Virus record (IMG/VR): IMGVR_UViG_3300044293_000777
Coordinates: 1-39,044 of that record
DNA from: a virus
Length of the DNA stretch: 39,044 nucleotides
Strand: one strand, 5' to 3'
This document shows positions 10,733 through 28,631 of the stretch, in pieces. Every line of letters starts with the position of its first letter. The first letter of the stretch is position 1. The position numbers and the translations under genes are program-made. The notes beneath the pieces are model-generated. The model was not told the origin of the DNA, searched no databases, and worked only from the letters and a program-made list of their open reading frames with translations.

Positions 10733-11478
10733 TACCCACCATATTCAAGAGTATTATTCTTGTCCATATCAAAAACTAGGTTCTTACTTACAGTATCTGC
10801 ATCATATGGATAGGCACTTCCACGAACAGTTGTAGTCCCTGCATTACTAATTGCAGCACTCAATGTACCATACTGAATACTGTCCTGTACCTGGGTACTG
10901 CCTTTCTCAAACGTTATATTAGGTTCAAAGGAATAATCGAATCTCTTAGCCTTTAACATCCACACATAATGACCCATCAATGGGTTGATTTGAGAATTAT
11001 CCTCATCAACTCGTTCCGTTATTTCAAACATCTTCCCGTTACGTTCCCCAGGCCTATCACTACCATATTCAGTTAATTGAAATACGTCACCTGCTTTCGG
11101 CTCTACATCCGGAGGATATACTGAATAAAAAGAACTTACGTGTACATAGGCAGTTAGTTGATCATCGCTCTGATATCCAAATTTACTCAGTATAAGGGCG
11201 TTTTCAGACAAACGTATTGCCATTACAAAACTTTTTGGAGTTTCAAATTTTTGTAATGGCATTTCACCATATATGTTGTCTGCAGACAAGGTATTATAAA
11301 GATTTCTATAATAAAGTATTTTTTGTCCATAAAGATCTATTTGTTCTCTAAACATATTACTATATAACTGACGCTCACATTCGTTATTATCCTTATCAGT
11401 GAACCTTAGCGTACTGGTTGTATACTGCATAGGATATTTTCTTATGCAATTAACACCAGTATATTTGTCCATGCTCAT
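10726..11478 (-). CDS. 14: Neck protein, T4 gp14 family
   Basis: A 250-residue protein (T4 gp14 is 256), a head completion/neck component that joins the DNA-filled head to the tail. The gp14 pattern is visible: EQIDLYGQKILYYRNLYNT (compare the ESIQMRG...YYVPR segment of T4), DNIYGEMPLQKFETPKSFVMAI, SKFGYQSDDQLTAYVHVSSF, EPKAGDVFQLTE, and GKMFEITERVDEDNSQINPL followed by YVWMLKAKRFDYS. Start ATG 11478 overlaps the stop of the preceding minus-strand gene (ATGA), so the two are co-translated from the late promoter at 11869. It converges on the plus-strand gene at 10391 with a 7-base overlap. gp13 and gp15 are not in the window. Confidence 0.8.
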   Translation of the reverse strand: MSMDKYTGVNCIRKYPMQYTTSTLRFTDKDNNECERQLYSNMFREQIDLYGQKILYYRNLYNTLSADNIYGEMPLQKFETPKSFVMAIRLSENALILSKFGYQSDDQLTAYVHVSSFYSVYPPDVEPKAGDVFQLTEYGSDRPGERNGKMFEITERVDEDNSQINPLMGHYVWMLKAKRFDYSFEPNITFEKGSTQVQDSIQYGTLSAAISNAGTTTVRGSAYPYDADTVSKNLVFDMDKNNTLEYGGYY

Positions 11479-11864
11479 TTAATAATATATCCTTGTACTT
11501 CCGGACTAAAAACCATTACTTTACCAGTATTACCTAAATTTTTTGGTGCTCCAGTATTAAGTCTTGATATACCAAATTTACTACAAATTTGTTTTATTTC
11601 ATCCTCGGATAATTTTTTACCAGGGAAATTTATTATAGCAGATATTGATGTCGGATCTGCTTTGTGCATATCAGGTACAGTTTGAGAATGTTTTCTAAAT
11701 TTTGGATCTTTAATAACCTTTCTATGTCTTTCTTTTGGTTTAGAAGGATTAGTCGGCTTAAATATTCTGAGTTTTGGTGTATAATGAATTGGCATTATAC
11801 CAGTATTCCAAGTAGTTACTTCATTTACAAGTTCTTGATTAAAAGCTTTTTTGAAGAGACTCAC
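11475..11864 (-). CDS. Unknown basic protein upstream of gp14
   Basis: A 129-residue protein with a GTG start at 11864, chosen because an exact late octamer lies 4 bases upstream. It begins MSLFKKAFNQELVNEV, similar in style to the other minus-strand proteins but without a clear (L/I)-x-E site. The middle is very basic and Pro-rich (KPTNPSKPKERHRKVIKDPK), and the C-terminal part (LSEDEIKQICSKFGISRL; GKVMVFSPEVQGYI) looks like a small folded domain. It is coupled to gp14 by an ATGA overlap, which suggests a head-neck or head-internal role. No family is recognised. Confidence 0.75.
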   Translation of the reverse strand: MSLFKKAFNQELVNEVTTWNTGIMPIHYTPKLRIFKPTNPSKPKERHRKVIKDPKFRKHSQTVPDMHKADPTSISAIINFPGKKLSEDEIKQICSKFGISRLNTGAPKNLGNTGKVMVFSPEVQGYIIK

Positions 11865-11868
11865 AAGT

Positions 11869-11876
11869 TATTTATA
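11869..11876 (-). promoter_or_regulatory. Exact late promoter TATAAATA for the gp14 unit
   Basis: Exact consensus on the minus strand, 4 bases before the GTG at 11864. It begins only 4 bases after the stretch of T residues of the terminator at 11879-11906. Confidence 0.85.
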
Positions 11877-11878
11877 AT

Positions 11879-11906
11879 AAAAAAGCCGTCATTAATGACG
11901 GCTTTT
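11879..11906 (-). terminator. Rho-independent terminator of the acidic core-protein unit
   Basis: Stem GCCGTCA / TGACGGC (11885-11891 and 11896-11902) closes a TTAA loop. Read leftward it is followed by TTTTTT and then ATTATAAATA. The flanking A and T runs extend the palindrome to 26 bases (11881-11906). It ends the minus-strand transcript that stops coding at 11931 and separates it from the next minus-strand unit. It is the only clear terminator seen in the window. Confidence 0.85.
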
Positions 11907-11930
11907 CTATTTAAGATTTATCTTCTTTAT

Positions 11931-12500
11931 TTATTTGAAGAAATCACCGGCTTTATAACCAGGAGCGTTAGCCTTATGAGCAGACTTGCTAGTTAACGAA
12001 TGACCCTTGCTATCAGCAATAGGTGTACCCTTCGCATCAATCTCTGTGCTTAATTGACCGGAAGCCTTAGAAGATTTGACATGGCCTGTCTTTGTGCCGA
12101 CGGTAGGTACACCGCCTTTCTTTTCTAAGGATTTACCTTTAGAATCGGGAAGATGTTCCAAATGAGTAGCTTCACCAGCTACTTCTTTTTTATCTTCTTC
12201 TTCATCCTCGTGCTTCTCTTCAGCTTCTTCTGCTTCAAGGGCTTCTTCACCACCCAAATCCTCTTCACCCTTATCTTCGTCATCCTTATCTTCAGCGCCG
12301 CCAAGAACTTCCATAAGAGCGTCGTGCAATTTTTGAGCTAGATCCTTGTCTAGCTTAATAGTAACGGTGTCTTCACTACCACCGCTCAAGTCAAGGTCCT
12401 TTGCATCGGCGGCTTCGCCTTCAGGACCTGCTTGAATGCCAAGATCAAGCTTGTCATCACCAATTACATCTTCATATAGTTTATCAAAAATTGACTTCAT
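11931..12500 (-). CDS. Inner in-frame form of the acidic protein (189 residues) with its own late promoter
   Basis: An in-frame ATG at 12500 begins MKSIFDKLYEDVIGDD. Five bases upstream is an exact TATAAATA (12506-12513), the same spacing as for the long form. The N-terminus matches the FEKLYES start of the protein at 28114, and L-Y-E followed by Asp is a possible prohead-protease site. I infer that late transcription produces this shorter protein separately, perhaps as the real head-packed form. Alternatively the octamer is chance in an AT-rich stretch. Confidence 0.6.
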   Translation of the reverse strand: MKSIFDKLYEDVIGDDKLDLGIQAGPEGEAADAKDLDLSGGSEDTVTIKLDKDLAQKLHDALMEVLGGAEDKDDEDKGEEDLGGEEALEAEEAEEKHEDEEEDKKEVAGEATHLEHLPDSKGKSLEKKGGVPTVGTKTGHVKSSKASGQLSTEIDAKGTPIADSKGHSLTSKSAHKANAPGYKAGDFFK

Positions 12501-12848
12501 ATGATTATTTATATTCTCTCCAGCTAATTTTCTAGTGTTATCTGAAAATTTTTCTGGTTCATAGTGATTATCTTTTTTTGTTATCTTGGGATCAACAATT
12601 TTTACTTTGCCTTCTAATGCAGCTGCCGGGCCTGAGTCTTTATGAACAAAAGCATTTTTGTCTGAACCTTTTTGCATAGTTTTTGCTAAGTTAATCTTTT
12701 TATCTGTCGCTTTTGGAAAGCCTTCCAATTTCTTCGCAGCTTTTTCTTCAACTACCCTCTTTGTAACTTGTTCAACTACAGGCTTTTTTGAATCTAATAT
12801 TTGCCCGTATAAAAGACCTATATCAACTATGCTTTTTTTTCTAGTCAT
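11931..12848 (-). CDS. Acidic low-complexity protein, putative prohead core/scaffold, long form
   Basis: A 305-residue protein from ATG 12848; the frame stays open a little further upstream, but an exact late octamer 5 bases before 12848 sets this start. Residues 1-116 are basic and Lys-rich (SKKPVVEQVTKRVVEEKAAKK; KGSDKNAFVHKDSGP). A second module begins at M117 with MKSIFDKLYEDVIGDDKL, then a short predicted fold (DTVTIKLDKDLAQKLHDALMEVL), a strongly acidic run at about 200-235 rich in Glu, Asp and Lys, and a Ser/Lys/Gly tail. The acidic run recalls the T4 prohead core peptide gp67 in composition only. The internal start is described separately. Confidence 0.8.
   Translation of the reverse strand: MTRKKSIVDIGLLYGQILDSKKPVVEQVTKRVVEEKAAKKLEGFPKATDKKINLAKTMQKGSDKNAFVHKDSGPAAALEGKVKIVDPKITKKDNHYEPEKFSDNTRKLAGENINNHMKSIFDKLYEDVIGDDKLDLGIQAGPEGEAADAKDLDLSGGSEDTVTIKLDKDLAQKLHDALMEVLGGAEDKDDEDKGEEDLGGEEALEAEEAEEKHEDEEEDKKEVAGEATHLEHLPDSKGKSLEKKGGVPTVGTKTGHVKSSKASGQLSTEIDAKGTPIADSKGHSLTSKSAHKANAPGYKAGDFFK
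12506..12513 (-). promoter_or_regulatory. Exact late promoter inside a gene
   Basis: TATAAATA on the minus strand, inside the coding sequence of the long form and 5 bases before the internal ATG at 12500. The expected transcript start coincides with that ATG. Confidence 0.65.
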
Positions 12849-12853
12849 ATATC

Positions 12854-12861
12854 TATTTATA
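12854..12861 (-). promoter_or_regulatory. Exact late promoter TATAAATA for the acidic protein
   Basis: Exact consensus on the minus strand, 5 bases before the ATG at 12848. It is part of a divergent pair with the weaker plus-strand site at 12864-12871. Confidence 0.85.
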
Positions 12862-12877: not shown

Positions 12878-14605
12878 ATGGAGAAAAAAGAGAAATATTA
12901 TCTTGGTAACGTACGGCTACCAACGGTAGATACAAAGCATGAATATACGCCGGAAATGATAAATGAATTAAAAAAATGTAAGAAAAATCTTCTTCATTTT
13001 GCTGAAAATTATTTCTATATTATTAATCTTGATCGTGGTAAAGAAAAAATTAAACTTTATTCATGTCAAAAAAGAGTATTACGCAGTTTGCGTGATGGTA
13101 GATTTATTATATTATTAGCATCACGACAGATAGGTAAGACCACACTGATGACTATTTATTGTCTCTGGAATGCCTGTTTCAACGAAGATCAAAGAATATT
13201 AATTGTAGCAAATAAAGAGCAAACTGCAAAAAACATTTTTAAGCGTGTACGACTAGCGTACGAAATGTTACCTAACTTTTTAAAGCCTGGTGTAGTAGAG
13301 TACGGTCAAACAAGCATGACCCTAACGAACGGGAGTAGTATTGGCATTAGTACAACAAGTAGCGATGCTGGTAGGGGTGACAGCTGTAATTGTTTAATTC
13401 TCGACGAGTTGGCATTTATTGATAATCATATTGTAGAGAAGTTTTGGGAATCAGTATATCCTATTATCTCTTCTTCAAAAAAATCTAAAATTTTTATAGC
13501 AAGTACTCCCAATGGGACAGATAATTTATTTTATAATCTATATCAAGGCGCGAAAGGTAACGAAAACAATTGGGTAGCAGAAAGAATAGACTGGTGGGAG
13601 ATACCTGGAAGAGATGAAAAGTGGAAACATGACACTATAAAAACCCTTGGCAGTGTAGAGGCATTCTCGCAAGAATTTGGAAATGAATTTTTACATGGCG
13701 GGGAAAGTTCAATTGATGAAGAGCTGTATACACTGCTATATAGAGAGGTACGTGAACCAGAATTTATTTTTGATGAAAATAGATACCTGGTTTGGGAAGA
13801 ACCTAAAGAAGGCAGATTGTATGTAGTAGGTGTAGATATAAGTGAAGGTGTAAGTGAAGCCGCTAGTGTTATACAGATTCTGGATGTTACCGATCTTACT
13901 TCCATAGAGCAAGTGGCAATATATCACACAAGAGACACAATACCTTTTCAATTTACTGCTAAATTATTGGAAGTTTTAAATCAATGGGGCCGCCCACCAG
14001 TATTAATTGAAAGGAACAGCTGCGGTGCACAGGTGGTTGAACAACTTAAATTTACCCACAGGTATGAAAATATAGTAACGTGGGGCGCTAAGGCTGGCGA
14101 TAAAGCGCTTCAAAAGAGAGTCGGTATATATTCACATACTAATACCAAATACCGCGGAGTACAAAATATGAGATATTGGGTAAATGAATTGCGCGCAGTA
14201 AAGATACGTGACGTTAATACTTTAAAAGAAATGCAAAGTTTTACTAGATTTCCTAATAATACGTGGGGAGCAAGACCAGGGGCAAATAGTTGGGATGATA
14301 GAGTAATGTCATTAATATGGGCTTTAATGGCTTTAGAAAATGAAATTTGCGTAAAATATTTTGATGTTGTTTCTTTAGACGCTTGCGATAGACCGCAGGT
14401 AATTAAGCAACTCGACTACGGATTAAGAGGGGTTATAAGCCCGTTCTCAATATATAACAACGAAAAATTAGAAAATTCAGAGAATGGAATTCTTCCCATG
14501 GTATTTAATGATAAGCCTCAAGAGTCTGAGATCGAGGAACTTAAAGATCAGGGATGGATGTTTCCAGGAGAAATAGGATTAAATAAACCGTGGCAACAGC
14601 TGTAA
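12878..14605 (+). CDS. 17: Terminase large subunit, T4 gp17 family
   Basis: A 575-residue packaging motor and nuclease. ATPase: Walker A ASRQIGKTT at 81-89, Walker B CLILDE at about 172-177, coupling motif ASTPNG at 207-212. Nuclease (RNase H fold): VGVDISEG near 316-323 (Asp319), IERNSCG near 376-382 (Glu377), and WDDRVMSLIWAL near 471-482 (Asp472/473). It pumps DNA into the prohead through the portal, which is outside this window. Slightly shorter than T4 gp17 (610). The small terminase candidate is about 11 kb away on the other strand. The end overlaps the next gene by 16 bases. Confidence 0.97.
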   Translation: MEKKEKYYLGNVRLPTVDTKHEYTPEMINELKKCKKNLLHFAENYFYIINLDRGKEKIKLYSCQKRVLRSLRDGRFIILLASRQIGKTTLMTIYCLWNACFNEDQRILIVANKEQTAKNIFKRVRLAYEMLPNFLKPGVVEYGQTSMTLTNGSSIGISTTSSDAGRGDSCNCLILDELAFIDNHIVEKFWESVYPIISSSKKSKIFIASTPNGTDNLFYNLYQGAKGNENNWVAERIDWWEIPGRDEKWKHDTIKTLGSVEAFSQEFGNEFLHGGESSIDEELYTLLYREVREPEFIFDENRYLVWEEPKEGRLYVVGVDISEGVSEAASVIQILDVTDLTSIEQVAIYHTRDTIPFQFTAKLLEVLNQWGRPPVLIERNSCGAQVVEQLKFTHRYENIVTWGAKAGDKALQKRVGIYSHTNTKYRGVQNMRYWVNELRAVKIRDVNTLKEMQSFTRFPNNTWGARPGANSWDDRVMSLIWALMALENEICVKYFDVVSLDACDRPQVIKQLDYGLRGVISPFSIYNNEKLENSENGILPMVFNDKPQESEIEELKDQGWMFPGEIGLNKPWQQL

Positions 14606-27522: not shown

Positions 27523-28114
27523 GCAGATATCGGTGTGTCCCAGCCTCAACACTAGGATTTGCCTCACCTTTTGCAGTCTCACTAGGGATTTTTGTATTAA
27601 AATTATTTAATTTTCTATCCCCGGGTGAATCTTTTTTATCACCTTCATCACTTGTCAAAGTCTGTCTATGAGGTGATAGCATCATTTCTGTTGCATTCTT
27701 CAATGCAACAGGGTGCGGCTCTATAGATGTATTGTTATGTCTCTTTAGGCTATCAGGTACTGGTGCTAGATTAGGATATGTATTAATAGGCTCCAAAATA
27801 TGTGCTGGTACTGTTATAAACTCTCTATATAGCCCGGGGGCAACTTCTTGTACTATATCTACAAGAAAGGATTCAGCTTCATTCTGTATATCACCTGAAT
27901 GTATTGTGGGTCTGATAGCCTTTATAGCACTAACGCGTAGGTTTAATCCACCATCACTAAAAGATCTTGCTTTCTGAACATAATTAGGTGATTGTTTCTT
28001 GAAGAAATCATCCTTAAATGCGTTTTCCGTAAACTTTACCAAATCACCCGTTAAAAACCCTCCTCTTGTAAATCTCTGAATAGCAGATTCATAGAGCTTC
28101 TCAAACTTATTCAT
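27512..28114 (-). CDS. Putative internal head/structural protein with CTS-like N-terminus
   Basis: A 200-residue protein starting MNKFEKLYESAIQRF. Residues 7-9 (L-Y-E) followed by Ser make a candidate prohead-protease site, and FEKLYES is nearly the same as FDKLYED in the protein starting at 12500. The body has an alpha/beta-like part (LNLRVSAIKAIRPTIHSGDIQNEAESFLVDIVQEV; YREFITVPAHILEP) and a hydrophilic, probably disordered C-terminal 80 residues. No family is recognised. A lone minus-strand gene with its own late promoter, inserted between gp44 and the wedge genes. The internal-protein role is an inference. Confidence 0.75.
   Translation of the reverse strand: MNKFEKLYESAIQRFTRGGFLTGDLVKFTENAFKDDFFKKQSPNYVQKARSFSDGGLNLRVSAIKAIRPTIHSGDIQNEAESFLVDIVQEVAPGLYREFITVPAHILEPINTYPNLAPVPDSLKRHNNTSIEPHPVALKNATEMMLSPHRQTLTSDEGDKKDSPGDRKLNNFNTKIPSETAKGEANPSVEAGTHRYLPKR
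27688..27711. repeat. Perfect 10-bp inverted repeat with 4-base loop
   Basis: CTGTTGCATT at 27688-27697 pairs with AATGCAACAG at 27702-27711 around CTTC. It is inside the minus-strand gene and about 165 bases past the gp44 stop. No U-run follows on either strand. It could cap or protect the 3' end of gp44 read-through RNA, or bind a protein. Confidence 0.7.
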
Positions 28115-28163: not shown

Positions 28164-28631
28164 ATGGCTGCTATAGTAGTTACTAGTTTAACATCAACTT
28201 TATCTGCGGCCACCTACAGAGACTTACTTCTTGATTTAAAAGTAAATTACACAAAAAACTTACAGCTTCTTAAGCGTAGAGAAGTAAAAGATATTCAAAT
28301 TTCGGAAGATTTAGGAGCTGTTAAAAACAGCTTGTTTAATCTTTTCACTACTATACCTGGCCAAAAAATATTAAATCCTATTTATGGTTTAAATTTGACA
28401 CAATATCTATTCGTCCCAGTCTCACAGGCTCAAGCACGTATAATTGGTGAAACTATATTAAAAGGTATACAAAAATACGAGCCTAGAGTACAATTGTCGA
28501 AATTAAACATTGAAGTTGATCCAGATAATAATCAATATAACGTCTTCATGTTAATTAATGTTCCAACGTTAAATATTACAGGAGTAAGTTTAAAAGGTGT
28601 TTTAAGCGAATCCGGATATTATTTTGATTAA
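28164..28631 (+). CDS. 25: Baseplate wedge protein, T4 gp25 family
   Basis: A 155-residue protein of the gp25 family (T4 132), a lysozyme-independent wedge component at the sheath-baseplate contact. The family core is clear: KDIQISEDLGAVKNSLFNLFTTIPGQKILNPIYGLNLTQYLFVP and QARIIGETILKGIQKYEPRV, then the strand NQYNVFMLINVPTLN. It opens the wedge operon and overlaps gp6 by one base (TAATG). Confidence 0.93.
   Translation: MAAIVVTSLTSTLSAATYRDLLLDLKVNYTKNLQLLKRREVKDIQISEDLGAVKNSLFNLFTTIPGQKILNPIYGLNLTQYLFVPVSQAQARIIGETILKGIQKYEPRVQLSKLNIEVDPDNNQYNVFMLINVPTLNITGVSLKGVLSESGYYFD

Follow-up and report, generated by a model that had tools for sequence, protein, structure and literature searches.

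The 39,044-nucleotide stretch of DNA analysed here, which we refer to as the window, is a 39-kb IMG/VR virus record from a T4-like, uncultured virus of bacteria. Next to the gene for the terminase large subunit (12878-14605), it carries on the minus strand an open reading frame for a protein of 305 residues (11931-12848); other T4-type genes in the window encode a minus-strand gp14-like neck protein and a gp25-like wedge protein. The octamer TATAAATA, of the T4 late promoter type, is located on the minus strand at 12854-12861, 5 bases (gatat) 5′ of the outer ATG at 12848. A second copy on the same strand (12506-12513), translated in frame within N-I-N-N, is located 5 bases (atcat) 5′ of an in-frame ATG (12498-12500), which from the geometry of the T4 octamer (PMC1524935) is also the predicted 5′ end of an inner mRNA. 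The initial annotation had proposed that this gene yields two late proteins, from the outer start and from an inner ATG at 12500 that is preceded by the exact octamer at the same 5-base spacing. Both coordinates were confirmed, as were the ORF lengths of the 305-residue and 189-residue forms, and the case is stronger than had been put initially.

The inner ATG divides the long form into an N-terminal extension (residues 1-116; 12501-12848, minus strand), with a predicted N-terminal helix at residues 7-21, and the inner, short form of 189 residues (11931-12500, minus strand). In the window, the extension is basic, as had been described, with a pI of 9.7, and the pI of 4.6 makes the inner protein acidic; the basic charge of the extension is not kept in all relatives. 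The inner form opens with a putative capsid-targeting sequence, MKSIFDKLYE (12471-12500), with an L-x-E cleavage site before D127, both assigned by sequence motif. Conservation and the structure model define a segment, TVTIKLDKDLAQKLHDALMEVLGG (12297-12368), containing the best-predicted helix (168-183), and sequence and model together mark a Glu/Asp-rich low-complexity stretch at 12171-12296 that is predicted to be disordered. Degenerate repeats (LPDSKGHSLTGKNNKV-type) are present in the C-terminal part of the protein, both in the window (12030-11940) and in relatives such as L063. After the stop codon, a hairpin with a T-run (11876-11911, minus strand; a 61-nt segment folding at -21.3 kcal/mol) resembles an intrinsic terminator and would close the unit.

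Spaced octamers in the window

Counts of the bare octamer are uninformative (12 in the window against 11.9 expected). For the octamer at a fixed distance from an ATG, the valid control is the full pattern reversed, since ATAAATA alone reverses to itself and is useless for this purpose. Exact TATAAATA-N5-ATG occurs three times in the window compared with 0.21 expected, a number reached by none of 100 shuffles, and all three copies are gene starts, namely the inner start, the outer start and that of the gp25-like gene at 28164 on the plus strand. The start of the gp25-like gene lies 50 bases from a divergent KLYE-type start at 28114. The sharing of an FDKLYED-type peptide with other minus-strand proteins, as claimed initially, is real, but what is shared is a class of N-termini, including MNKFEKLYES (28114, minus strand) and MSLFEKHFLKILEAD (9088, minus strand), rather than one sequence.

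The inner octamer in relatives

Relatives were obtained from IMG/VR in searches that took as query the inner part, the extension or the whole family, the last of which gave 239 matching stretches, and 76 non-redundant relatives were counted after removal of near-duplicates. The first base of the octamer TATAAATA is variable, as is the -13 position in T4 (PMC1524935). Both the inner ATG and the octamer are kept in 73 of the 76 relatives, with TAAATA located exactly 5 bases 5′ of the in-frame ATG (ATAAATA in 71); the refuting condition named initially, relatives without either of the two, thus did not overturn the proposal. The in-frame extension is open in every relative inspected, and no separate gene for it was seen. 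At the outer start, most relatives have NNTAAATA at a gap of 5, GTG starts included; in the few relatives where the outer start is GTG, it follows TATAAATA by 4 or 5 bases. L035 and L049 (G005) carry the octamer variant NCTAAATA at both the outer and inner starts, which resembles the CTAAATA reported for phage Aeh1.

Conservation of this kind might also be expected if only the long protein were made, with I-N-N-x-M-(x)-K-S-I-F-D-K-L-Y-E acting as a conserved linker plus protease site and the octamer arising as a by-product of encoding I-N-N. The I-N-N/T-x-M peptide is itself conserved, and the protease site would also function inside the long form. However, the Ile codon in the element is the rare ATA in 27 of 29 relatives, although ATA makes up 20% of the Ile codons that these genes use, and the AAT codon is present in all 29. 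Among ten relatives from the clade of the window, synonymous identity reaches 97% over the octamer codons 111-116 plus spacer but is 55% and 51% in the flanks, and this region ranks top among 236 windows scored for synonymous identity. Pairwise dS in codons 111-116 is zero in many pairs for which the flank dS is above 1 and near saturation. Moreover, the distance from the inner ATG to KSIF varies by 0 to 4 codons among phages, whereas that from the octamer to the ATG stays at 5; the octamer travels with the ATG and not with the downstream peptide. In L035 and L049 the peptide reads L-N-T and TAAATA is still kept. No octamer was found at a gap of 5 before any of 150 other internal ATGs. Taken with the absence of the element from genomes that do not use the spaced-octamer grammar (see below), these data make it improbable that the long protein is the sole product, and the synonymous constraint indicates that the element is selected as DNA. 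In most freshwater-clade pairs the dN of the extension is 0.2-0.4 and its dS exceeds 1, and the extension and the inner part are each under purifying selection. The proposal of one gene giving two late proteins is thus supported by the retained spacing, the synonymous constraint and selection on both forms, as far as sequence comparison can indicate.

The three exceptions to the spaced element (L037, L045 and L048) form one small clade of close relatives and retain the inner Met. NTAAATA-N5-ATG gave 0 and 2 matches in the two contigs of this clade that were searched, in comparison with 42 in G005, the genome of another relative; judged genome-wide, this spacing of promoter and start is either missing there or no commoner than in the control. 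All three keep MSKSKFDKLYED and have a conserved CTAAATA 19 bases 5′ of that Met, which may be an inner promoter giving a leader. Their extension is acidic and longer.

If the inner promoter were real, it might serve the downstream neck genes rather than the inner protein, given that gp13/gp14-like genes follow on the same strand. However, a strong terminator-like hairpin, with differing stem sequences, is located directly after the gene not only in the window but also in 30 of the 31 relatives with sequence there, implying that the inner promoter serves only this gene and that its transcript would encode the inner protein only. In addition, a further TATAAATA belonging to the next gene is located at 11876-11869, 4 bases before a GTG at 11864, and a promoter directed at downstream genes would not need a gap of exactly 5 to the inner ATG. 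We regard a role confined to the downstream genes as very improbable. The downstream neck gene (11475-11876, minus strand) probably starts at this GTG (VSLFKKAFNQELVNE...), while the ORF list has an ATG at 11795.

Promoter spacing and predicted leaderless messages

The T4 late octamer occupies positions -13 to -6 relative to the transcription start site (PMC1524935). With a gap of 5, +1 would fall on the A of the ATG, predicting a leaderless mRNA. The gap of 5 in 73 of 76 relatives matches, by geometry only, a nested isoform expressed from an internal promoter with +1 at the inner ATG. In G004, a 209-kb relative, the gap peaks at 5: an ORF start follows within 60 bases for 57 octamers, with 25 at a gap of 5, none at 4 and six at 6. 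In G001 the peak extends over gaps of 4, 5 and 6, with 8, 12 and 10 octamers. By comparison, the late region of T4 yielded 12 octamers, at distances of 12 to 35 bases from the starts and none closer than 12, and in P-HM2 and phiM9 the parts examined contain only 4 and 3 octamers. The late sigma factor gp55 is encoded in both relatives covered by the search, G004 (E 1.8e-17) and G001 (E 1e-16); the window itself is a 39-kb fragment.

Octamers 4-6 bases before many starts were seen genome-wide in G004 (L068-L078) and G001 (L079-L090). A perfect palindrome in G004 (C1:128064-128079, in L074), CATAAATATATTTATG, constitutes two divergent octamer-N5-ATG starts that share the same 16 bases.

The start sites used by the late sigma factor of this clade are predicted ones, and the exception clade retains the Met without the spaced octamer, as might be anticipated if the inner protein were translated from a conventional message with a leader, or if translation began internally on the long mRNA. 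Yet the gap is fixed at 5 across the family, its lower edge is sharp in G004 (25 at 5 and 0 at 4), and GTG outer starts hold a gap of 4-5. The octamer also takes the position of a Shine-Dalgarno site, although the geometry itself explains part of the lack of such sites at starts preceded by an octamer, and this lack is not counted as independent proof. Leadered or internally initiated synthesis consequently appears unlikely, and a leaderless inner mRNA is the reading that we prefer. Leaderless late mRNA is predicted to be a trait of much of this phage group, and late messages in the group as a whole seem to start exactly at the start codon.

A candidate capsid-interior protein in two lengths

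The first 10 residues of T4 capsid-targeting sequences suffice for targeting, and gp21 cuts after L/I-x-E (PMC9026906). The N-terminus of the inner form, MKSIFDKLYE|D, is likewise a peptide of about 10 residues ending in L/I-x-E, and its S, F, L and E do not vary across 22 diverse relatives. N-termini of this kind are also found in further proteins of these phages whose genes start at an octamer, among them gp21 (MPLRLLVE). The assignment of a putative targeting sequence and cleavage site is based on motif and N-terminal position, (L/I)-x-E being short. A gp21-type protease (PF03420) scored over the cut-off in four of the five records searched, with none in the 39-kb window fragment, and four relatives encode both gp21 and gp23. 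Since a gp22-like gene is encoded separately in relatives, adjoining gp21 and gp23, the product of the nested gene is not gp22, and identity with this scaffold was rejected.

A second targeting sequence with L/I-x-E at the N-terminus of the long form (approximately residues 19-21) was also considered; it fits some relatives but not the clade of the window, and is treated as a lead. In six relatives (L021, L022, L039, L041, L053 and L056) an L/I-x-E motif some 20 residues into the long form may represent such a sequence.

No homology to the named T4 core or internal protein families was detectable and 22 members gave no consistent Pfam or PHROG match; searches of cultured phage records and of bacterial genomes gave no match to the protein family. 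The AlphaFold model (pLDDT 51, mostly low confidence) shows the conserved short helix in an otherwise disordered chain and is too weak for a fold search. The motif, its position and the accompanying genes suggest that the product, in its two lengths, is likely one of the core or internal proteins of the prohead.

We consider it probable that this late gene has two products and encodes a protein of the prohead interior, combining an embedded promoter, a leaderless inner mRNA and gp21-type cleavage. The outer late promoter would direct synthesis of the 305-residue form, while the embedded gp55-type late promoter would give an mRNA with its 5′ end at, or about one base from, the inner ATG, to be translated without a Shine-Dalgarno site into the acidic 189-residue form. 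MKSIFDKLYE would then allow this form to enter the prohead core, where a gp21-type protease would cut it after LYE. As the same cut site is present inside the long form, the protease would split this too, and the extension would become an internal peptide of its own. A nested start would let the phage make the acidic core part in excess of the extension. We infer the transcription start, leaderless translation, capsid location, cleavage and stoichiometry from sequence.

The internal proteins IPI-IPIII of T4 have an N-terminal targeting peptide of about 10 residues that ends in the same L/I-x-E motif and is cut by gp21, but their mature parts are without detectable homology to the protein described here and they are not described as nested in-frame products (PMC9026906). 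T4 gp22 and gp67 are prohead core proteins processed by gp21, as is proposed here; the nested gene has no profile match to either, and the gp22-like gene of the relatives is separate. In lambda C/Nu3 and herpesvirus UL26/UL26.5, a longer gene for head assembly also gives, in frame, a shorter form that is the scaffold, and the long form is the protease. In contrast, the protease in these phages is the separate gp21. For T4 gene 17, a late gene, the annotation records internal transcription and the in-frame translation of shorter products, as proposed here, but this is the terminase gene, whereas the nested gene encodes a putative capsid core protein. Proven leaderless synthesis of a shorter form is known from VirF30/VirF21 of Shigella, where transcription from a promoter inside the gene begins 1-2 nt ahead of an in-frame ATG (PMC5101355). 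VirF, however, is a bacterial regulator expressed from a host promoter and a single case, unlike the phage late promoter, conserved family and predicted leaderless message considered here.

Very probably, to judge from the sequence comparisons, a second promoter fused to a second start codon enables one gene to make two capsid proteins; in genetic terms this would be a simple way for a single locus to supply two proteins of the capsid interior. Promoter and start form a single 16-bp unit able to encode x-I-N-x-x-M, and could thus become embedded in coding sequence. It seems somewhat more likely than not that, in a large uncultured group of T4-like phages, many late genes are expressed on leaderless mRNAs through a compact octamer-N5-start cassette, an embedded copy of which has given rise to a conserved gene with two products, setting the ratio between two proteins inside the capsid. 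The model phage, T4, uses leaders and Shine-Dalgarno sites. Late messages starting at the AUG, as the geometry predicts, would imply that the ribosomes of the hosts accept leaderless mRNA efficiently. Gene callers report the long ORF only and would miss a second start that is kept in nearly the whole family, and the signature of promoter plus targeting sequence may be used to find packaged internal proteins in uncultured phages.
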